From positions 4,960,001-5,024,000 of the forward strand of contig NZ_CP163444.1 of assembly GCF_041053105.1 (NCBI RefSeq): a stretch of 64,000 nucleotides of DNA. The letters run 5' to 3'. The stretch is from Streptomyces sp. R44 (GTDB lineage: Bacteria; Actinomycetota; Actinomycetes; Streptomycetales; Streptomycetaceae). Within the stretch, counting starts at the first letter, position 1; the number at the start of each line of letters is the position of its first letter. A program made the position numbers and the translations under genes. A model generated the notes under the pieces. The model ran no database searches. It saw only the letters and a program-made list of their open reading frames with translations, and was not told the origin of the DNA. Shown here one piece after another: positions 12,892 to 24,701 of this stretch.

Positions 12892-15168
12892 CTAGAAGAC
12901 GGCGACGGTCGTCTTGTCGACGGGGACGTAGGCCTTCTTGCGGAGCTTGAAGGGGGCGTTCGCGTCACCGGTGCCCTCGTACAGGTAGCCGCCCGTACCC
13001 GAATAGGTGCTCGCGTCGGGGAAGGAGACGAACAGGTCGGGACGGCCGTCGCGGGTGGCGTCGCCGAAGCTGAAGAGCCGGGTGTAGCCGTTCCAGCCGC
13101 CGCCGACCCTCACGCGCGGACCGTAGGTGCCGTTGCCCTTGCCCGGGTACATCCACAGGACACCGGCGGCGTCACGGGCGAGGAGGTCCGCCGCCGGGGC
13201 GCCGCCGAGGTTGCCCGGCGCGATGATCTGGTTGTAGATGCCCCAGCCGGCGCCGATCTGCTTGCGGGCGCCGAGCGGGGCGTTGACGTTGCCGGTCCCG
13301 GGGTACAGCCAGAAGCCGCCGGACTTGTCGACGGCCAGGACGTCGGGCTTGCCGTCCCCGGTCATGTCCGCGGTGCCGTTGATCTTGTCGTACACCTGCC
13401 AGCCGGAGCCGATCTTGATCCGGGGGCTCAGGTTGGGCCAGGCACGGGAGTAGAGCCACAGGCCACCGCTCTTGTCCCGCGCGACGATCTCGGGGTCGGC
13501 GGTGCCGCCGAGATCGCCGGGGACCGTGAACCTGTCGTAGACGTTCCAGCCCGTCCCCCAGACGGGGCGGACGTCATCCCAGCTGACGAAATCGATGGAG
13601 GGGGAGTAGTCACCGTCGTACGACCCCATGCCGCCCGTGGGGCCCACCACGATCGGGTCCGGAGAGCCGTTGTCGCTGAAGTCGTGCGGGTGGGGCTTGT
13701 GGGTGACGGTGAACGTGCCGCGCTGCGACCACCCGGGCCCCACGTGGTCGAGCGGACTGACGGTGGCACACCACGTCCAGGTGCCGTTCGCCGCCTGGCC
13801 GTACGAGTTGAACTCCCCGTTGCGGTCGTGACGGCTGCCCTCCCAGGTGAGGCTGATGCTTCCGGGGCCGGACGGAGCGTCCTTGGCGGAGGCCTGCGCC
13901 CACCAGTCGTAGTTCCCCCAGGCGAACTCGCAATCCTGGTCGCCGTACGAGAGGGCGATGTCGGCGTAGACCCGGCCCCGGCTCACGTCGAACGTGAACG
14001 GGAACACGCCCCGGTTCTTGTCGAGGTCGATCACCTGCGGTATGCGCGGCGTCACCACGAGCTGCGTCGGCTCGCCGGTCGCGGCGACGAGCTGCCGGGT
14101 GATGGCGCCCTCGACGCCGGGGGCGACCCGGTACAGCCCCTCCTCGCCCGCGCCCTCCGTCAGGGAGCCGCCGCGCACCAGGAGGGCGCCGTCGGGGGCG
14201 GTGGCCAGACTGGTCGCGTGGGCGAGGAGCTGCTTCGCGGGCTCATCGTTCAGGGACTTGGCGTCGAAGGCCGTCTCGCCGTTCCGCATGGTCTCGTGGA
14301 CCAGCCAGGAGCCCGTCAGGCCGAGCTCGACGTGCTTGTGGGCGCCGACGGGGAAACTGCGGGTCGCGCCGGTCTTCCGGTCGGTGACGACCACCACTCC
14401 GATGTCCTGGTTCGACGCGTCCTTCGTGTACTCGGTCCACGCGACGTGCGTGGCGGAGAGGGCGGCGAAGGGCGAGTCGGCGGCCGGATTCCGGTTCTCG
14501 TACGTCTTGGCGACCACTTCCGGGGCGGCCAGGTCGACCACGGCGAAGAGGGTCTTGCCGGCGGCCTGGAAGCCCACCATCGCGGTGCCGGAGATGGCCG
14601 CCCTGACCGTGAACGAACCGGCCCCGGCGGGCAGTCCGTAGACGGTGCGGTTGGTGATCATGCCGCTGACCGAGGCGCTGACCAGGTGGAGTTCGGTGGC
14701 GCCGGCGGGGGTCTTCACGCTGGTGAGGACGGTCGATCCGACCGCGCCGAAGGCGGTGTGGGTGCCGTCGGTCAGGGTCTTGAGGTCGATGTCGACCGGG
14801 GCCGCGCCGCCGGTCATGTCCTGGACGCGCAGGACGCGGTCGCCGACGGTGCTGACGAGGACGTCGGAGGCCGCGCCGAGGACGGCGGCCTGGGAGGCGA
14901 CGACCGTCGAGGCGCCGCCTTCGTTCCGGGTCCAGCGGTACTCGCCGGAGGTGTTCCTGCTGAGGAAGCCCGTGGCGCCCGCGCTGACGATCTCGGAGGC
15001 GAGCGGGAACGGGGTCACCTCCCCGGCGGCGGCGGGCGCGGAGACGGCGGTGGTGGCGGCGAGCGCGGCGGGCGCCGTGGCCAGGGTGCCGGCGGTGACG
15101 GCGAGGGCGGCGGTGATCGCCGCGGTCAGGCGCCGGGACCGGGACGTCACACGAGAGGCGTGGGACAA
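12892..15168 (-). CDS. Secreted FG-GAP/VCBS-like repeat protein, paralog 1
   Basis: A 758-residue exported protein. It starts at TTG 15168 with GGAAGGA seven bases upstream. Signal peptide: basic n-region, LTAAITAALAVTAGTLA core, AALAAT cleavage region. Residues about 45-400 look like a propeller-type domain with an LRVQDMTGGAAPVDIDL unit. A central Ig/FlgD-like section has a GTWTWCATVSPLDHVG stretch. The C-terminal third holds about six repeats of roughly 50 residues with 'DxxGxPDxLAxDxSGxxWLYPG' and 'GxGWxxYxxxxxxGD', the FG-GAP/VCBS pattern with Ca-binding-like Asp loops. It ends in an aromatic tail (TTVAVF). Four close paralogs lie at 15235, 22442, 24702 and 27058. Function unknown. Confidence 0.8.
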   Translation of the reverse strand: MSHASRVTSRSRRLTAAITAALAVTAGTLATAPAALAATTAVSAPAAAGEVTPFPLASEIVSAGATGFLSRNTSGEYRWTRNEGGASTVVASQAAVLGAASDVLVSTVGDRVLRVQDMTGGAAPVDIDLKTLTDGTHTAFGAVGSTVLTSVKTPAGATELHLVSASVSGMITNRTVYGLPAGAGSFTVRAAISGTAMVGFQAAGKTLFAVVDLAAPEVVAKTYENRNPAADSPFAALSATHVAWTEYTKDASNQDIGVVVVTDRKTGATRSFPVGAHKHVELGLTGSWLVHETMRNGETAFDAKSLNDEPAKQLLAHATSLATAPDGALLVRGGSLTEGAGEEGLYRVAPGVEGAITRQLVAATGEPTQLVVTPRIPQVIDLDKNRGVFPFTFDVSRGRVYADIALSYGDQDCEFAWGNYDWWAQASAKDAPSGPGSISLTWEGSRHDRNGEFNSYGQAANGTWTWCATVSPLDHVGPGWSQRGTFTVTHKPHPHDFSDNGSPDPIVVGPTGGMGSYDGDYSPSIDFVSWDDVRPVWGTGWNVYDRFTVPGDLGGTADPEIVARDKSGGLWLYSRAWPNLSPRIKIGSGWQVYDKINGTADMTGDGKPDVLAVDKSGGFWLYPGTGNVNAPLGARKQIGAGWGIYNQIIAPGNLGGAPAADLLARDAAGVLWMYPGKGNGTYGPRVRVGGGWNGYTRLFSFGDATRDGRPDLFVSFPDASTYSGTGGYLYEGTGDANAPFKLRKKAYVPVDKTTVAVF

Positions 15169-15234: not shown

Positions 15235-17394
15235 TCAGGAGTAGTCGTTGAACGCGCCGGTCTCCCCCGCGTACAGCGCGGCGCGGTCGCGGTACGAGAA
15301 CGGCCGGTTCCACGTGCCGATGGAGCGGTAGAGGTACGCGCCGGTCGGGCCGATCGCGAGGAGGTCGGGGCGGCCGTAGCGGTCCGCGTTCCCGACGGGG
15401 ACGAGGTGCTGGTAGGCGTTCCAGCCGCCGCCGACCTTGACGCGCGGGGCGAAGGTGCCGTCGCCCTTGCCGAGGTACATCCACAGCACCCCGGCCCTGT
15501 CGCGGGCGAAGACGTCCCCGGCCGGCGCGCCGACGCTGTTCCCCGTGGCGACGACCAGGTCGTAGACGCCCCAGCTCGTGCCGATCTTCTTGCGGGCCCC
15601 GAGGGGGGTGTTGGCGTTTCCGGTGCCAGGGTAGAGCCAGAGGCCGCCGGACCTGTCGGTGGCGAGCACGTCGGCCCTGCCGTCTCCGGACACGTCGCTG
15701 CCTGCGGCGATCTTGTCGTAGATCTGCCAGTTGGTTCCGATCTTCACGCGGGGCGTGAACCCGCCGTCGCCCTTGCCCTGGTAGAGCCAGAGGCCGCCGT
15801 TCCGGTCCCGGGCGAGGAGGTCGTCCGTGTCGGAGCCGCCGAGGTTCCCGGCCGCCTCGATCCGGTCGTACGCCTGCCAGCCCCCGCCCAGCGAGGAACG
15901 GCCGGCCGAACGGAGCACGTTGTCGGGGTAGGTGGTGTCGTCGCGCCACAGCCGGCCGGCCGCGTCCCTCGCGAGGACGTCGGGCGTGCCGTTGCCCGTG
16001 TAGTCGTGCGCGGCGGTCACGCGGGCCACCGTGATCGCCCCCGAGGAGCGGACGGCCTCGCCGATGCCGTTGAGCGGAGTGGCCGTGAGCTCCCACGTGT
16101 AGGCGCCGCTGGGGATGGGCCTCTCCTCGTACAGGCCGCCCATGAAGTGGTTGATCGTGGTGGGAGGGTTGCTCCATGAGCCGTTGAACGTGTCGGTCAC
16201 GGTCTTGCCGGTGGTGGTGTGGCGCAGGGTGAGTTCGCAGCGCACATTGGTCCGGGAGACGCCCCAGGAGAACAGAATGCCCTTGTTCCACGTGCTGAGC
16301 GTGACGGCCTCGGGCACGGTCGCCACCGGCACCCCGAGCTCGACGGACTCGCCGCTGCCCGCCAGGAACTCGGCGGTCGGGGTGCCGTCGGCGGCCGGCG
16401 AGATCCGGTAGAGGCCCTCGCCGTGCTCCTTCGTACCGCCGCGTGCAAGGAGGGAGCCGTCAGGGGCCACGGCCGAGGACGAGCGGTGGTCGAGCAGCCG
16501 TACGGTCCGGCCGTCCGCGTGGTGTGCGACCAGCGGGACCAGGTCCGGGTGCTCGGCCCTGGTCAGTCCCTGCCGGTCGGCGGTGAGGAACCAGTCCCCG
16601 AGTGCCTCCACCGACGCCTGGCGGCCCGTGCCCAGAGGCGTGACCGTGCGCGCGCCGGTGGCCCGGTCGAGAACGGTCAGATTGAGGGCGTAGTCCGGGG
16701 AGTCGTTCCACATGTGGTCGACCCACGCGAGGCGGGACTTCGTGGCGGTGAAGTCCGGAGACGGCACATCGGAGAACGCCTGGGTGACGGTGCCCGTGGC
16801 GATGTCCACGAAGGACAAGGGCCGTCCCGTGTCCCCCGGGTGGCTCACCGCGAATTCTCCGGACTGCGTGGGCACGACCTTGCGCGTATGCCAAGGCGCG
16901 ACCACGTCGGGGACGGGCCGGTCCGTGATCCGGTCGCCCTCCTTGCTCACCAGGTGCAGCTGGTCGCCGGCCCACACGGCGAGCGTCGTGCCGCTGACCG
17001 CGGCGGCCTCGAACGTGAAGCCCCGGCCGCTCAGGTCGATCGTCACGGGCTCGGCGCCGGTGGCCATGTCGTAGAGCCGGAAGACGTTCGGCGCGGTCGT
17101 CACGCCGACGACGTCCGACCGGATCTCGCCGATCGGGGTCCCCGGGAGCTCGGTCGTCGAGCCGTCGGAGAAGCGGGTCCAGAGGAGCTTCTCGCCCTTG
17201 CTGAGGAAGCCGGTCGCTCCGGCGCCGACGATCTCGCTCCTGGCGGGGAAGGACAGCGCGGCCTGCTGCCCGGTGGCCGGGGCCGCGGGGCCGGCCGTGG
17301 TGGCGGCGGTCGCGGGGGCGGCGGCGAGCGCGCCGCCGGTCAGCGCGAGCACAGTGGCCACGCTGACCGCCAATGTGCGGGATGCGCGAAGCAT
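15235..17394 (-). CDS. Secreted FG-GAP/VCBS-like repeat protein, paralog 2
   Basis: A 719-residue relative of the proteins at 12892, 22442, 24702 and 27058. It starts at ATG 17394 with GGGGGG upstream. The signal peptide has the core TLAVSVATVLALTGGAL and cleavage near ATAATT. The N-terminal domain contains FRLYDMATGAEPVTIDL; the middle has an Ig-like segment (GAYTWELTATPLNGIGE) typical of FlgD-type modules; the C-terminal part has about six GDxxGDGRADVLATDRSGGLWLY-type repeats. The tail is LYAGETGAFNDYS. It is the only one of the five with a plain ATG start. Likely secreted; substrate or partner unknown. Confidence 0.8.
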   Translation of the reverse strand: MLRASRTLAVSVATVLALTGGALAAAPATAATTAGPAAPATGQQAALSFPARSEIVGAGATGFLSKGEKLLWTRFSDGSTTELPGTPIGEIRSDVVGVTTAPNVFRLYDMATGAEPVTIDLSGRGFTFEAAAVSGTTLAVWAGDQLHLVSKEGDRITDRPVPDVVAPWHTRKVVPTQSGEFAVSHPGDTGRPLSFVDIATGTVTQAFSDVPSPDFTATKSRLAWVDHMWNDSPDYALNLTVLDRATGARTVTPLGTGRQASVEALGDWFLTADRQGLTRAEHPDLVPLVAHHADGRTVRLLDHRSSSAVAPDGSLLARGGTKEHGEGLYRISPAADGTPTAEFLAGSGESVELGVPVATVPEAVTLSTWNKGILFSWGVSRTNVRCELTLRHTTTGKTVTDTFNGSWSNPPTTINHFMGGLYEERPIPSGAYTWELTATPLNGIGEAVRSSGAITVARVTAAHDYTGNGTPDVLARDAAGRLWRDDTTYPDNVLRSAGRSSLGGGWQAYDRIEAAGNLGGSDTDDLLARDRNGGLWLYQGKGDGGFTPRVKIGTNWQIYDKIAAGSDVSGDGRADVLATDRSGGLWLYPGTGNANTPLGARKKIGTSWGVYDLVVATGNSVGAPAGDVFARDRAGVLWMYLGKGDGTFAPRVKVGGGWNAYQHLVPVGNADRYGRPDLLAIGPTGAYLYRSIGTWNRPFSYRDRAALYAGETGAFNDYS

Positions 17395-17516: not shown

Positions 17517-18080
17517 CTACGCCGACGGCGCCCAAGGCCCCGACAGCAGCTCCTCGACACTGCGCCGGTCCCGGCCCTCCGGCGGCTCCCCGGCCGCCTT
17601 CCCCAGGGCGACCATCGAGACGACCGCCCATCCCGGGTTCGGGTCGAGCTCCTTGGTGAGGCCCTCCATGTCGAAGGCCCGGAACTGGTGCGACGCCAGA
17701 CCCAGCGCCTCCGCCTGGAGGGTCATGTGGGCGATGGCCTGCCCCAGGTCGTAGTCCGCGAACTCCGAGTACAGCACCTCCGTGCCGTCCACATGGCGGC
17801 GCGTCAGCGTCACGACCAGCAGCCCCGCGTCCACCGCCCACCGGGCCGAGCTGGGCGCCAGGTGCCGGACCACCCGCTCGTGGTCCGGCTCACCCGGCCG
17901 GCTCACGAAGAAACCCCACGGCTGGGAGTTCCCGGCGGACGGCGCCCACCGCGCCGCTTCGAGCAGCAGGCGCAGGGACGCGTCGTCGACGACCGCCGAC
18001 GGGTCGAAGCGGTACGGGCTGAACCGCCCGACCAGCAGGGGATGTATGCCGCCGCCGGACGGTTCCTGATCACGTCGCAT
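17517..18080 (-). CDS. Nitroreductase family protein
   Basis: A 187-residue FMN-dependent oxidoreductase-type protein. RFSPYRFDPSAVVDD followed by LLEAARWAPSAGNSQPWGF is the classic N-terminal FMN-binding region (RxSxRxF...A..APS..N.QPW). DLGQAIAHMTLQAEALGLASH and a C-terminal VVSMVALGKAAGEP match the second flavin/dimer region. Such enzymes reduce nitro groups, quinones or enones with NAD(P)H. ATG 18080 is preferred over an upstream TTG. It follows the SnoaL-LUD gene by 46 bases on the same strand, so it is probably the second gene of the transcript driven from 19253-19231. Confidence 0.88.
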   Translation of the reverse strand: MRRDQEPSGGGIHPLLVGRFSPYRFDPSAVVDDASLRLLLEAARWAPSAGNSQPWGFFVSRPGEPDHERVVRHLAPSSARWAVDAGLLVVTLTRRHVDGTEVLYSEFADYDLGQAIAHMTLQAEALGLASHQFRAFDMEGLTKELDPNPGWAVVSMVALGKAAGEPPEGRDRRSVEELLSGPWAPSA

Positions 18081-18126
18081 GCTCGGGTCCAACCGGCCCC
18101 CGCGCAGCGCTATTCCGGCCGCCGTC

Positions 18127-19191
18127 CTAGTACCCGACGGCCTCCCGGAGCAGCAGCACCGTGCCGCGCCCCGGGTGCGGATCCGCGTGGAGGACGAGGA
18201 GGCGGTTGACCGCGCTGTCCTGCCCGTACACCGCCTGGCAGCGGGAGTTCTCCAACGGCAGGACGTGCTCCTCGACGCGCCGCAGGGCCGCGCCCAGGTC
18301 CGGCACCACCTTCTGCGCGCCCACGACCCACACCGCGTGCGCGGCGCCGCCCGCGTTGGCCGGGAGCTGGCTGCCGCTGCCCGAGGCGAGGACGAGCGAG
18401 CCGGTCTCGGTGACGGCGGCGACGCTGTTCACGACGTAGTCGGGGCAGGCGGCCAGCCTCCGGATCTCGTCGGCGCCGGTCGCCCGGTCGATCGACAGGA
18501 TGCGCGGCCTGACGGCGTCGTACGCGCCGCCGGCGTTCAGGTCCTCGTCGATGCCGGAGAGCCGGAGGGTCTCGCTGGCCCCGGTGAACACGCTGGAGCC
18601 CTCGGGGATCAGCTCCTTGATCCGGGTCCGCGCCTCCGCGACGTCGTCGAGGATCTCGACGGCGAAGTTGTTGGCCCGCAGCGCGGCGGCCACCCGTTCG
18701 AGACGCTCGTCCGTCGCGGGGGCGGTGAAGGACGCGGCCGGGGCGGACCTGGCCGAGGCGGGCGCCGTACCCGCCAGCGGGGAGGTGTCGAGATACCTCA
18801 CCTCGTACACCCGCTCCGCGAACCGCCAGCCTTCCTCCGTCCGCCGGTAGCGGTCGTGGTAGACCGCGTAGTTCTGGCCCTGCCGTCCGTCGAGGGTGCG
18901 CGCGATCTCCTGGATGTACGCGCGGCCGGTCGCCGTGTCGCCGTCGAGCTCGATCGTGCCGGGGTGGGTGTTCTGCACGAAGAAGTCCCACTGGGCCTGC
19001 AGCCGCTCGCCCCCGGCGATGATCTCCTCCCGGCCGATCTGCTCGACGGGGATGTTCGGCATGCGCAGGGCGCCGTCCGGGGTGAACAGCGCCGCCAGAC
19101 GGGGCCGGTCGCGCATCATCACCGCGTCGGTGAACTCGCCGCGCAGCGCCTCGATCTCGACGCGGTCCGCGATGGCCTGGAAGTCGTTCAT
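18127..19191 (-). CDS. SnoaL-like (NTF2 fold) / LUD domain fusion protein
   Basis: A 354-residue protein joining two domains not usually seen together. Residues 1-135 match the SnoaL/NTF2 alpha+beta barrel (IEALRGEFTDAVMMRD, LFTPDGALRMPN, YHDRYRRTEEGWRFAERVYEVRYL). An Ala/Ser/Pro linker spans about 138-160. Residues 162-350 match the LUD (LutC/YkgG) fold: a helical start, GSSVFTGASETLRLSGI, VNSVAAVTETGSLVLASG, VVGAQKVVPDLGAAL. LUD proteins are linked to lactate utilisation in other bacteria, but no lutA/lutB homolog is here. Start ATG 19191 has AGGAGAACCCCG upstream. Its promoter mirrors that of the divergent ECF41 gene, which also has a SnoaL domain. Confidence 0.82.
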   Translation of the reverse strand: MNDFQAIADRVEIEALRGEFTDAVMMRDRPRLAALFTPDGALRMPNIPVEQIGREEIIAGGERLQAQWDFFVQNTHPGTIELDGDTATGRAYIQEIARTLDGRQGQNYAVYHDRYRRTEEGWRFAERVYEVRYLDTSPLAGTAPASARSAPAASFTAPATDERLERVAAALRANNFAVEILDDVAEARTRIKELIPEGSSVFTGASETLRLSGIDEDLNAGGAYDAVRPRILSIDRATGADEIRRLAACPDYVVNSVAAVTETGSLVLASGSGSQLPANAGGAAHAVWVVGAQKVVPDLGAALRRVEEHVLPLENSRCQAVYGQDSAVNRLLVLHADPHPGRGTVLLLREAVGY

Positions 19192-19230
19192 CGGGGTTCT
19201 CCTCTCGCTCCTGCTGACGTCTCCACCGAG

Positions 19231-19258
19231 AGGACAAGGCAGCCCTCCGGAATGTGAG
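19231..19258 (-). promoter_or_regulatory. ECF41/SigJ-like promoter for the SnoaL-LUD gene
   Basis: On the minus strand, CTCACA (19258-19253), a 16-base spacer, then TGTCCT (19236-19231). This resembles the GTCACA-N16-CGTCCT form I recall for SigJ-type sigma factors and the TGTCACA/CGTC pattern of ECF41. The predicted transcript start is about 33 bases before ATG 19191. Confidence 0.6.
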
Positions 19259-19271
19259 GTGGCGCGACGGC

Positions 19272-19299
19272 CTGACATTCCGGAGGGCTGCCCTGTCCT
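19272..19299 (+). promoter_or_regulatory. ECF41/SigJ-like promoter for the sigma factor gene (autoregulation)
   Basis: CTGACA (19272-19277), a 16-base spacer, TGTCCT (19294-19299), the mirror image of the promoter at 19258-19231. The predicted start lies about 38 bases upstream of ATG 19344. Confidence 0.6.
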
Positions 19300-19343
19300 A
19301 TACGGGGAGAGGCACACACACGAGCGAGGGAGACGGCCGGACC

Positions 19344-20228
19344 ATGACCACGGGAGCCGAGATCATGAGCGAGCGGCGTCGGCTGATCAACCTCGGCTAT
19401 CGGCTCCTCGGCTCCCTCGCGGACGCCGAGGACGTCGTGCAGGAGACCTACGCCCGCTGGTACGCCCTGTCCGCCCGCGAGCAGCAGGCCATCGAGCAGC
19501 CCGGCGCCTGGCTGATGACCGTCGCCGGCCGCATCTGCCTGAACCTGCTCGGCTCGGCGCGGGCCCGGCGCGAGACGTACGTGGGCGACTGGATCCCGGA
19601 ACCGCTGCCGGAACCCACCGAGGGCGACGGCGGGAGCGACCCCGCCGACCGGATCACCCTCGACGAATCCGTGACGATGGCCTTCCTCGTCGTCCTGGAG
19701 GCGATGACCCCCGCCGAGCGCGTCGCGTTCGTCCTGCACGACGTTTTCCGCTACCCCTTCGGCGAGGTCGCCGAGATCGTCGGCCGCACCCCGGCGGCCT
19801 GCCGCCAACTGGCCTCGTCGGCCCGCCGCCGCGTCCGTACGGCACAGAGCCCCGCGCGCCCGAGCGCGGGGCAGGCGGGCGTCGTGAGGAAGTTCAGGAC
19901 GGCGTGGGAGGCCAAGGACATCGAGGCCCTGGTCGGCCTGCTCGACCCCGCCGCCGTCGCGACGGCCGACGGCGGCGGGCTCGCCGTCACCCACCTGCGC
20001 CCGCTCGTGGGCGCCGAGCGGATCGCGGAGGGCTATGCCGAGATCGCCCGTCTGTGGGACGGCCGGACGACGTTCCAGGAGCGCACGGTCAACGGCGTGC
20101 CCGGCCTGGTGGCCTGGCAGGACGGCGAGCTCGTGACCGTGTTCGCGTTCGAGATCGCGGACGACCGGATCAGGCACATCTGGGCGGTGCGGAACCCCGA
20201 GAAGCTCCGCCCCTGGAAGGTCAGCTGA
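19344..20228 (+). CDS. ECF41-type sigma factor with C-terminal SnoaL-like domain
   Basis: A 294-residue RNA polymerase sigma factor. Sigma region 2 covers about 10-75 (RRRLINLGYRLLGSLADAEDVVQETYARWY), and region 4 covers about 110-165 (MTPAERVAFVLHDVFRYPFGEVAEIVG). Three hallmarks of the ECF41 group are present: WIPEP in the linker (83-87, consensus WLPEP), DGGG (209-212) and NPEKL (284-288, consensus NPDKL) in the SnoaL-like C-terminal domain. In studied members this extension modulates sigma activity and no anti-sigma factor is needed. ATG 19344 is preferred, with GAGGGAG upstream. Divergent genes encode a SnoaL-LUD fusion and a nitroreductase rather than the usual carboxymuconolactone-decarboxylase-type partner. 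The 3' end overlaps the HAD gene by 8 bases. Confidence 0.9.
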   Translation: MTTGAEIMSERRRLINLGYRLLGSLADAEDVVQETYARWYALSAREQQAIEQPGAWLMTVAGRICLNLLGSARARRETYVGDWIPEPLPEPTEGDGGSDPADRITLDESVTMAFLVVLEAMTPAERVAFVLHDVFRYPFGEVAEIVGRTPAACRQLASSARRRVRTAQSPARPSAGQAGVVRKFRTAWEAKDIEALVGLLDPAAVATADGGGLAVTHLRPLVGAERIAEGYAEIARLWDGRTTFQERTVNGVPGLVAWQDGELVTVFAFEIADDRIRHIWAVRNPEKLRPWKVS

Positions 20229-22037: not shown

Positions 22038-22481
22038 ATGAAATCCGAAACAGCCACCCCAACCAGTGAGTTCACGCTCCGGCTCTCGGCAACGCGCCGG
22101 GGCGCACGCCTGGCGCGGTTACTCGCTGTGCAGCAGCTCCGGGACTGGGGCCTGAGGGGCTCCGCCGCGGACTCCGTGGAGCTGGTCGTCGCCGAGCTCG
22201 CCAACAACGCGGTCCAGCACGGCTGGGTGCCGGGGCGGGACTTCGAGGTGCGGATGGAGCGCGGCGAGGACCACGTACGGGTCGAGCTGTCCGACGCGCG
22301 CGGCGAGCGGCGGCCGGTGCCGGCCCGGGAGCCGGACGAGGGCGGCTACGGGCTGCTGCTCGTCGCCGCCCTCGCCACGGCGTGGGGGGTGAAGGACCGG
22401 TCCGTCGGCAAGACGGTCTGGGCGACCGTCCCGCTGGCACGTCAGAACACGGTGGTGGGAGAGGAGTCCGGAGACACGTAG
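22038..22481 (+). CDS. ATP-binding anti-sigma-type protein (HATPase/GHKL fold)
   Basis: A 147-residue protein with the GHKL ATPase motifs used by anti-sigma kinases of the RsbW/SpoIIAB type: N-box SVELVVAELANNAVQHG, a G1-like VRVELSDARGERRP, and GYGLLLVAALATAWGV. Such proteins often sit beside XRE-DUF5753/DUF397 genes in Streptomyces, as here. The target sigma factor, if any, is not evident. ATG 22038 has GGGGGC just upstream. The last 40 bases overlap the 3' end of the convergent FG-GAP gene (stop at 22442), and both reading frames look genuine there. Confidence 0.85.
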   Translation: MKSETATPTSEFTLRLSATRRGARLARLLAVQQLRDWGLRGSAADSVELVVAELANNAVQHGWVPGRDFEVRMERGEDHVRVELSDARGERRPVPAREPDEGGYGLLLVAALATAWGVKDRSVGKTVWATVPLARQNTVVGEESGDT

Positions 22482-24664
22482 GTCCTCAGGTCGAGTTCCT
22501 GGAAGGGAGCCTTCCAGTCGCCGGTTCCCCTGGCGAGGTACACCCCACCCCCAGCGGCGTATCCCACCAGGTCCGGGCGTCCGTCGCGGTCGACGTCACC
22601 CACACCGACCGGCAGGAAGGGGCCCCAGTTGTCACCGACTCGGGTGCGGGCGGCGAAGGTGCCGTCGCCCTTGCCGAGGTAGAGCCAGAGGACGCCGGCC
22701 GTGTCGCGGGCGACGAGGTCGCCGGCGGGGCCGCCGCCGATGTTCCCGGTGGCGGTGATCGTGTTGTAGATGCCCCAGCCGCCGCCGAGCTTCACGCGGG
22801 TGGAGAAGGGGGTCGTGGCGGAGCCGGTGCCCTTGTAGAGCCAAAGGACGCCGGAGGTGTCGGTGGCGAGGAGGTCGGGGCGGCCGTCGCCGTTGAGGTC
22901 GCTGCCGGCGGTGAGCTTGTTGTAGACGCCCCAGCCGCCGCCGACCTTCACGCGGGGCGCGAGCGTGCGGCCGGCGCCCTGGTAGAGCCAGAGGACGCCG
23001 GTCTTGTCGCGGGCGACGACATCGGCGTACGAGGAGCCGGCGACGTCGCCCGGGGCGACGAGCTGGTCGTAGACGTTCCAGCCCGTGCCGATCCGTACGG
23101 GGTTCTTGTCCTGCCAGCTCGGTCCATAGCGGTTCGTGTACCCGTCGTGGACGAACAGCTCGCCGTTGCTGTTCCGTACGAGCAGGTCGGAGCTGCCGTT
23201 GTCGTCGAAGTCGTGCGAGGTGGACTGGCGGACGACCTTGAAGGTGCCGGAGACGACGAGGGCGGGGCCGATTCCGTTGTTGGGAGTCGCCGTCATCTTC
23301 CAGGTGTAGTCGCCGTTGTACGCGGTGACGGAGTCACTGAAGAGGCCGTCCCAATTCGCAGTCCGGGATCCGTTGGAATAATAGGCCTGGACGGTCGCTC
23401 GCTTTCCGGTCGCCTTGTGAACCAGTTCGACGCGCGCCGTGGCCCCGATCCGGCTCAGGGTCCAGGACAGGGGAACCGGGGCGGGGGTCCGGTCGAAGTC
23501 GATCGTCTCGGGGACGTCCTGCTTCACCAGCTCCAAGGTCGTGGGCTGGCCGGTGCTCGCCACGAGGCTGACCACCGGCCGGGCGCCGTCGGCGCCGGGG
23601 GCGATCCGGTAGAGGCCCTCGCCCTGGTCGAGCGTCCCGCCCCGCGCCATCTGGGCTCCGCCGGCGTCGGTGACGGAGCTCGTCGCGTGCTCCAGGAGCT
23701 TGACCGTCTCACCGGTCGTCAGGGAGCGGGCGAACAGCGCGAACAGGGCGTTCGGCTCTTGGATCGGTGCGTAGTTTCCGAACTGGCGGTACGTCACCCA
23801 GTCGCCGATCAGCTCGATGGCGACGGAGGCCGTGATGCCCAGGTCGTGACGCACGGTCTGGTCGGTGCCCCGCCGGGTCACGGCCACCTTTGTCGTGGAG
23901 TCCGCGGACTTCTCGACCCAGGCGATGTGAGTGGCCGACAGCGAGAGGCTCCCCGTCCCGCTCTCGGGCAGCTCGTACTCCTCGACGATCGTGTGGGTCG
24001 CGATGTCCACGACGGCCGCGCGGTTCCGCTTCACCCCGTCGACGGTGCCCGAGTACCGGACCACGGCGGTGTCGGGCGAATCCACGTCGATGTAGGTGAT
24101 CACGGCGTCGGCCGGCAGGCCGGTCACCGTCTCGTCGACCAGGACACCCTGCGGCTTGCCGATGAGGTGGACGTCCGTGCCACCGGTCGCGTTGGCCTTC
24201 TTCATGACGAGCCTTGTGCCGGCGTACCTGGCGAAGGTGTAGCCGCCGCCGAGGGGGTTGATGTCGATCTCCAGCGGTTCGCCTCCCTTGCCCATGTCGT
24301 ACAGGGTGAAGACACCGTCCTTCGAGCGCGCCGACACGATGTCCGACCCCTGGGCCGATGAGTACGCCCCCTCGGGGAGGACCGTCGTGACGCCGTCCGC
24401 GTACCGGGTCCACCGATAGGTCATGGGTGCGTTCAGGATGCTCTGGCCACTCAGGAAGCCTGTCGGGCCGGCGCCGAGGAGCCAGGCGTCGACCGGGAAC
24501 GGCGCGACGTCCTGCTCCGCCGACTGCCCGGCGGCCGCCGTGACGGCCCCCGTCGTCGCGAAGGCCGCCGGTGCGGCCGTGGCCGTCGTGCCCGCCGTGA
24601 CGGCGAGGGCGACGGCGACGGCGGCGGTGAGCCGGAGTCTGGTGTTCCGCGTGGGGAGGTTCAA
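22442..24664 (-). CDS. Secreted FG-GAP/VCBS-like repeat protein, paralog 3
   Basis: A 740-residue exported protein from TTG 24664, chosen because it has AGAGAAAG upstream and gives the same short n-region before LTAAVAVALAVTAG as its neighbour. A longer TTG start at 24694 has no Shine-Dalgarno. Domains: signal peptide; propeller-like N-terminal region with LYDMGKGGEPLEIDI; Ig/FlgD-like GDYTWKMTATPNNGIGP; about six FG-GAP-like repeats (DLNGDGRPDLLATDTSGVLW). It ends SSPTTVF. The repeat DNA at 22644-22955 is almost identical to 24922-25233 in the next paralog. It lies 37 bases after that gene and is likely co-transcribed with it. Confidence 0.8.
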   Translation of the reverse strand: MNLPTRNTRLRLTAAVAVALAVTAGTTATAAPAAFATTGAVTAAAGQSAEQDVAPFPVDAWLLGAGPTGFLSGQSILNAPMTYRWTRYADGVTTVLPEGAYSSAQGSDIVSARSKDGVFTLYDMGKGGEPLEIDINPLGGGYTFARYAGTRLVMKKANATGGTDVHLIGKPQGVLVDETVTGLPADAVITYIDVDSPDTAVVRYSGTVDGVKRNRAAVVDIATHTIVEEYELPESGTGSLSLSATHIAWVEKSADSTTKVAVTRRGTDQTVRHDLGITASVAIELIGDWVTYRQFGNYAPIQEPNALFALFARSLTTGETVKLLEHATSSVTDAGGAQMARGGTLDQGEGLYRIAPGADGARPVVSLVASTGQPTTLELVKQDVPETIDFDRTPAPVPLSWTLSRIGATARVELVHKATGKRATVQAYYSNGSRTANWDGLFSDSVTAYNGDYTWKMTATPNNGIGPALVVSGTFKVVRQSTSHDFDDNGSSDLLVRNSNGELFVHDGYTNRYGPSWQDKNPVRIGTGWNVYDQLVAPGDVAGSSYADVVARDKTGVLWLYQGAGRTLAPRVKVGGGWGVYNKLTAGSDLNGDGRPDLLATDTSGVLWLYKGTGSATTPFSTRVKLGGGWGIYNTITATGNIGGGPAGDLVARDTAGVLWLYLGKGDGTFAARTRVGDNWGPFLPVGVGDVDRDGRPDLVGYAAGGGVYLARGTGDWKAPFQELDLRTYVSPDSSPTTVF
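22644..22955 (-). repeat. 312-bp near-identical block shared with 24922-25233
   Basis: This segment encodes about two FG-GAP repeats of paralog 3. It aligns without gaps to 24922-25233 in paralog 4, with roughly a dozen mismatches by eye, far closer than the rest of the two genes. It fits recent gene conversion or unequal exchange. Confidence 0.8.
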
Positions 24665-24701
24665 GGCTCTGCTTTCTCTGTTCGGTCGGGCCAAGAGGGG
24701 G

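Follow-up and report, generated by a model that had tools for sequence, protein, structure and literature searches.

The 64,000-nucleotide stretch of Streptomyces sp. R44 analyzed here (contig NZ_CP163444.1, positions 4,960,001 to 5,024,000; the window, numbered from its first letter) contains a nearly perfect inverted repeat between two divergent genes, one for an ECF41/SigJ-type sigma factor with its ATG at 19344 (plus strand) and one for a partner protein with its ATG at 19191 (minus strand). The question raised by this locus is what the repeat is: an operator or cruciform, or promoters. Our analysis favors a back-to-back promoter pair for the ECF41-type sigma factor, which would activate both itself and the divergent gene (probability roughly 0.82, judged from sequence comparison). 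Self-activation together with activation of the neighbor was also proposed in an initial annotation of this DNA, and we retain it as the best model because the arms fit the ECF41 promoter, the adjacent gene encodes an ECF41/SigJ-type protein, and the pair recurs in relatives. The sigma factor likely has two nearly private targets, itself and its neighbor. The features concerned are:

18127–19191, minus strand: divergent partner, 354 amino acids, a SnoaL_4 domain fused to a LUD domain
19224, minus strand: predicted partner transcript start, 33 bases before the ATG, placed from leaderless-looking relatives
19232–19259, minus strand: putative partner promoter (left arm), −35 CCTCACA at 19253–19259, 16-bp spacer, −10 TGTCC at 19232–19236
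19260–19270, no strand: 11-bp center between the −35 elements, TGGCGCGACGG, with the consensus CGRSGCGYCGR in relatives
19271–19298, plus strand: putative sigma promoter (right arm), −35 CCTGACA at 19271–19277, 16-bp spacer, −10 TGTCC at 19294–19298
19306, plus strand: predicted sigma transcript start, the 8th base after the 28-bp arm and 38 bases before the ATG, placed from leaderless-looking relatives
19344–20228, plus strand: ECF41/SigJ-type sigma factor, 294 amino acids, regions 2 and 4, a C-terminal SnoaL_2-like domain and a WIPEP linker motif

The inverted repeat and its promoter motifs

Positions 19231–19255 and 19275–19299 are reverse complements with one mismatch, as initially described, and this pair was the sole match when the window was searched for 25-bp arms that differ at no more than one position and enclose a loop of up to about 60 bp. 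No repeat of this kind was found in windows shuffled in blocks of three (n = 2 only). The symmetry covers the 28-bp arms 19232–19259 and 19271–19298 with 2 mismatches (26 matches) and is still 85% when 40-bp arms are compared, and the region 19215–19315 has a strong predicted fold as single-stranded DNA (z = −8.2 against 200 shuffles).

Each arm contains CTCACA or CTGACA, 16 bases and TGTCCT facing its own gene, which had been taken to resemble a SigJ/ECF41 promoter. This resemblance holds against the ECF41 promoter of Wecke 2012 (PMC3426412, cited throughout for the accessible part of its text), given there as TGTCACA, 16±1 bp and CGTC. The window arms have a TCACA/TGACA −35 core, a 16-bp spacer and TGTC, so that core, spacing and −10 agree with the published promoter; the −35 opens with CC where the published one has TG. 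Among relatives, the left arm is mostly CCTCACATTCCGnnGGGCTGCGTTGTCG and the right arm mostly CCTCACATTCCGGnGCGCTGTCYTGTCG. A general sigma-70 promoter scan of 19150–19400, built for other promoter types, found none.

In the proposed mechanism, the C-terminal SnoaL domain, treated as a gate in Wecke 2012 (PMC3426412) and in the accessible part of a review (PMC8999054), would permit the sigma factor to direct RNA polymerase to both arms, which would raise the levels of the sigma factor and of the divergent SnoaL-LUD protein. Less certainly, the near-perfect symmetry in the window may have arisen through template switching at replication, in which one arm is now and then copied over the other, and the same process may flip the center in some relatives.

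Identity of the sigma factor

Assignment of the sigma factor to SigJ/ECF41, as first proposed, is supported by its match to the NCBIfam SigJ model PRK09636 (303 bits, cut-off 271), by its alignment to the Mycobacterium tuberculosis SigJ structure 5xe7 over residues 6–288 of 294 (2.6e-45), and by its linker motif. SigJ of M. tuberculosis is its best solved sequence relative, a likeness drawn by protein sequence alone. The linker between regions 2 and 4 characteristically carries WLPEP in ECF41 proteins (Wecke 2012, PMC3426412); the window protein has WIPEP at residue 83, and W[LIV]PEP is present in 77/77 distinct loci with a promoter pair. The protein also has the ECF41 architecture, in which regions 2 and 4 are followed by a SnoaL-like extension at the C-terminus, with Sigma70_r2 and Sigma70_r4_2 above the Pfam cut-offs and SnoaL_2 at E 1.5e-4 and 22.8 bits, under its cut-off of 27. 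A COE gene, used as a neighbor criterion for ECF41, is absent here, where the partner is a SnoaL_4-LUD protein; such a neighbor is not obligatory, about 30% of ECF41 genes being without one (Wecke 2012, PMC3426412).

The same genome, a single contig of 8.89 Mb, encodes a sigma paralogue with 70% identity (G000:C1:8563345-8564226), for which one arm is recognizable at 8564379–8564406, pointing away from the paralogue gene.

Recurrence of the promoter pair in relatives

When 80 loci were collected by sigma protein similarity alone, both arms (16-bp spacer, gap of at most 30 bp) were present in 55, and in 44 of the 52 that have a SnoaL/LUD partner. The promoter pair thus recurs in relatives, as the initial annotation had proposed to check for the inverted repeat, and it is found beside the sigma gene in several actinomycete families. 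Of 391 genomes in the order, 29, that of R44 among them, matched a DNA pattern blind to the sigma gene, with control matches in 2 genomes, and 27 of the 29 had a sigma gene within the fetched stretch. An extended motif of 30 positions, with up to 3 mismatches allowed, gave 16 matches in 8 genomes, 15 of them at the sigma locus, against 0 for the reversed control; these genomes, own included, had been preselected as pair carriers. In the R44 genome the extended motif matched the two arms only. A phylum-wide TGTGA/TCACA pattern was found in 1 of 396 genomes, but it required CGTCG in the left arm and was therefore blind to the window and to the common TGTCG left arms.

For further comparison, 151 loci (numbered with L) with a sigma match were narrowed to 97 with the pair and to 77 distinct loci, window included. 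Loci L124–L153 had been fetched by a pattern requiring the pair, and some genomes were present in both locus sets before the reduction to 77. The arm expressions fix the spacer at 16. Loci without the strict pair, or with sigma reads containing stops or shorter than 200 amino acids, were dropped, as were L130 and L152, which had no sigma gene in the fetched stretch; L154–L176, matches to CCTSACA-N15-17-YGTCS, stood outside the locus analysis.

Several observations weigh against a dedicated promoter pair. Of the 80 sigma-similarity loci, 25 lack the strict pair, and so do 8 of the 52 whose partner is of the SnoaL/LUD type, some of these loci being one-armed. Short motifs are unspecific genome-wide: CCTSACA-N15-17-YGTCS matched 23 times in the R44 genome against 9 for its reversed control, and the genome scan suggested initially, run as YTSACA-N15-17-TGTCST, gave 6 matches against 2 and so did not single out the locus. 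The window copy is itself atypical, since its −10 is TGTCC in both arms where SnoaL/LUD relatives read TGTCG or CGTCG; the left arm of L062 is the one other exception.

At the level of single bases, positions 19232 and 19298 show a parallel change in the two arms, each having C right after TGTC where nearly all relatives have G. When the sigma factor was searched for changes that accompany the TGTCC −10, the sole window-specific residue before residue 200, by the cut-offs used, was Q52, which is S in 69 of the 76 other loci.

Predicted transcript starts

In some relatives the start codon lies so close to the promoter arm that the gene looks leaderless. An ATG opening a long frame occurs exactly 7 bases after the 28-bp arm for both genes of L053 (Paractinoplanes toevensis) and on the partner side of L067, L078, L082 and L023, L078 and L082 being sister species; with L114, where the ATG is at 8, the leaderless-looking genes total 7, a count weakened as support by an ATG search that was limited to offsets 6–8, start-like triplets elsewhere being counted and not checked for genes. 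An in-frame ATG at 8 in L050 was left out of the count, as a window-like start lies ten codons further on. In L053 the gap between the −35 elements is 0, and the 70 bp between the two ATGs consist of the two arms plus 7 bases on each side. If these genes are leaderless, the first transcribed base is likely the 8th one past the arm, which predicts starts at 19306 (plus) and 19224 (minus) in the window, with leaders of 38 and 33 bases. These leader lengths equal the distances from the two start codons given in the initial annotation, and were reached here by an independent route.

The divergent partner

Partner classes were assigned by tblastn with the window partner (E < 1e-8, within the fetched stretch), adjacent separate SnoaL and LUD genes being scored as both (for example, L096). 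On this basis the 77 distinct pair loci comprise 37 with SnoaL and LUD, 20 with LUD only, 2 with SnoaL only and 18 unmatched in the fetched stretch. Because fused, separate and single forms all occur under the same promoter, the distribution suggests that the SnoaL and LUD domains serve one process. A Pfam scan of 10 divergent frames from 9 loci lacking a SnoaL/LUD match identified domains in 7 and none in 3, which may be wrong frames since frames were chosen by guanine-cytosine content at codon positions. The matches include YceI (L101, L121), FMN_red (L111, L114) and Pyr_redox_2 (L113, L117), and a CMD protein is encoded by the second divergent gene of L095.

In L003/L068 (2270–2782, Streptomyces triticagri) the partner consists of the SnoaL part only and the LUD part is absent. 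The final 19 residues of the long partner form still match directly behind this short partner, as an internal loss of the LUD domain would leave them.

Spacing of the two promoters

Where several pairs were possible the gap closest to 11 was taken, and on this scoring the gap between the −35 elements is 11 bp in 50 of the 77 distinct loci, 10 in 6, 8 in 5, 0 in 5 and 12 in 4, with single loci at 6, 9, 13, 14, 19, 22 and 26. In L133 (genome G409) one −35 element occurs twice through an 11-bp tandem duplication, so that gaps of 11 and 22 are both present.

At an 11-bp gap, the upstream contacts of each polymerase would overlap the −35 element of the other, and two polymerases may not fit at once on promoters so arranged. 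The pair could then act as an either/or switch in which polymerase at one arm blocks the other and so sets how much sigma factor is made relative to partner, an idea to which we give somewhat less than even odds. Of the 59 SnoaL/LUD loci 40 have a gap of 11, as do 10 of the 18 others, so the spacing also occurs with exchanged partners; six gap-11 loci have YceI, FMN_red, Pyr_redox_2 or CMD divergent to the sigma gene (L101, L121, L111, L113, L117 and L095). The spacing is about one helical turn, and the 0-bp gap must have changed at least 3 times on the sigma tree when only the other marked groups are taken for comparison. However, the argument is purely geometric, with footprint sizes taken from general knowledge, and gaps of 6, 8–10, 12–14, 19, 22 and 26 bp exist too. 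The yardstick used, which is how far the right arm lies from a sigma start projected from the window sigma factor rather than from each gene's true start, is also fairly constant (40 of 77 within −104 to −109, range −14 to −173), and shared ancestry may therefore explain part of the constancy of the gap. A more ambitious proposal would make the locus one evolved bidirectional unit, with phase-locked geometry (11 or 0 bp between the −35 elements), polymerases that exclude or help each other, flipping and homogenizing by template switching at no cost, and partners exchanged around a constant geometry; as a whole we think this rather unlikely.

Origin of the arm symmetry

Identity of the arms extends through the spacer, and the initial annotation suggested that the repeat might for this reason bind a dimer or form a cruciform. 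Across the 77 distinct loci, the conserved spacer columns on either side are TTCCG, following the −35, and GCTG, ahead of the −10; the 18 distinct left arms that stand single show a similar but weaker pattern. Because both sides and unpaired arms share them, these bases belong, as far as the alignment can tell, to the subfamily promoter or its needs. Spacer identity between the arms of one locus averages 10.23/16, against 9.94 when each arm is compared with the opposite arm in the three nearest neighbors (42 loci up, 32 down, p = 0.03). By position, the agreement gives p = 0.01 for 13–16 and p = 0.046 for 13, 14 and 16. A permutation that ignores relatedness gave p = 0.003 for the 44 SnoaL/LUD loci, 0.0004 for all 55 and 0.29 for the 11 others. 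Outliers are the window, at 15/16, and L143, at 16/16 and 28/28 overall; at least 15/16 is expected by chance in 0.0014 per locus, or about 0.1 in 77, assuming independent columns with the frequencies of the 59 SnoaL/LUD loci, and as the window was picked for its repeat only L143 is an independent outlier. Across relatives, then, spacer complementarity is not maintained in the aligned arms. The spacer identity, which was to be looked for in a cross-species alignment, is not kept and is mostly promoter consensus.

A repeat serving chiefly as the operator of a dimeric regulator for both genes, or as a cruciform, with the promoter resemblance secondary, would account for the near-perfect 25-bp symmetry, the strong single-strand fold and the conserved, nearly palindromic center CGRSGCGYCGR. 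This is improbable given the low mean spacer complementarity in relatives and the similar, if weaker, consensus kept by single arms, on which grounds a cruciform or dimer operator was rejected as the cause of the spacer identity. In addition, the pair persists without any center (gap 0) in L053, L067, L076, L139 and L110, of which L076 and L139 are near-copies, the promoters of L053 take up the 70 bp from one ATG to the other, and the orientation of the center varies. Recent inverted duplication of one promoter could also yield the 26/28 matches between the window arms, but side-specific signatures (right GCTGTC, left GCTGCG) occur in many genera and contradict it, and neighboring species agree more on the same side (11.93 right to right and 12.12 left to left, of 16) than across sides (9.98); the chance of such an origin is very small, and the promoter pair is instead old.

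With the arms read as promoters, the center provides a further clue to their symmetry. Conservation of the center is strongest at G2, C6, C9 and G10 after six reversed centers were turned: 42 of the 48 distinct 11-bp centers scored are forward with respect to the consensus and 6 are reversed, with clear separation, and these six also count as the inverted ones wherever 50 loci are compared. Inversion is clearest in L045 and L064. In L045, flipping the central 37 bp cuts the differences to the three nearest relatives from 17, 14 and 20 to 9, 8 and 13, and the flanks beyond the flipped core are in normal orientation; in L064, a 9-bp flip cuts them from 23, 20 and 19 to 18, 15 and 12. Flip widths were fitted for best fit, and 36 of the 50 loci, window included, gained less than 1 difference. 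L012, scored forward, fits L143 and L089 better flipped, and polarity in this clade is therefore uncertain. The six inverted centers suggest template switching at replication rather than a cruciform or dimer site that has been kept. Template switching between short imperfect inverted repeats, with homogenized arms and inverted spacers, is described in yeast in the accessible part of Abraham and Hazkani-Covo 2021 (PMC8604942). With two promoters so close to equivalent, a flip of this kind should do no harm.

Other results count against template switching. The window center is not itself inverted, and the mixture of left-type and right-type bases in the window would require more than one event. 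The arm-copying signal is modest (p = 0.03) and is absent at positions 21–23 (p = 0.49). On the tree, the inverted label needs five changes and is no more clustered than in shuffles (256/500 as low); unclustered inverted centers fit a recurrent event, but they also fit noise.

Relation to known systems

The divergent double-promoter layout has been known since 2012. In the accessible text of Wecke 2012 (PMC3426412), <ECF< >COE> loci have divergent ECF41 and target genes with a promoter often before both (36 and 41 of 55; Table 4) and a 16±1 bp spacer, and no wider regulon was found there, all of which resembles the present case. Unlike those loci, the window type has CCTCACA or CCTGACA as its −35, against TGTCACA, and an extended spacer consensus; the preferred 11-bp back-to-back spacing and the inversions of the center are additions not met in that part of the paper. 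The spacing and the apparent evolutionary flipping of the center look new. The yeast loci of PMC8604942, as far as its accessible text goes, would be a parallel for both features, the homogenized arms and the inverted spacers that short imperfect repeats enclose, but they lie in coding DNA, whereas here the apparent flip affects a bacterial promoter pair and leaves both promoters in place. Within a literature search that had most subscription journals outside its coverage, no earlier account was found of ECF41 with a LUD domain, of leaderless ECF41, of LUD-SnoaL in Streptomyces, or of back-to-back or inverted-repeat divergent autoregulated sigma promoters.

To our knowledge, few ECF41 targets are known. 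These sigma factors are abundant in actinomycetes (Wecke 2012, PMC3426412), and the locus would offer one that, in a genome of 9 Mb, has a nearly private pair of promoters arranged in a precise and testable geometry. Paractinoplanes toevensis would provide a minimal natural version, with 70 bp between two leaderless-looking genes. The functional-looking symmetry of the repeat appears better read as promoter consensus combined with a mutational process, which would advise caution in taking palindromes as operators or cruciforms.

Neighboring genes

One further gene may belong to the partner side of the locus:

17517–18092, minus strand: nitroreductase-family gene, 34 bp downstream of the partner

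This gene possibly shares an operon with the partner; tblastn for its relatives beside the partner found none in the compared loci other than the window. Three large proteins with FG-GAP_3 repeats are encoded nearby on the minus strand, two on one side of the sigma locus (12892–15168 and 15235–17394) and one on the other (22442–24694), and look like a local gene family.
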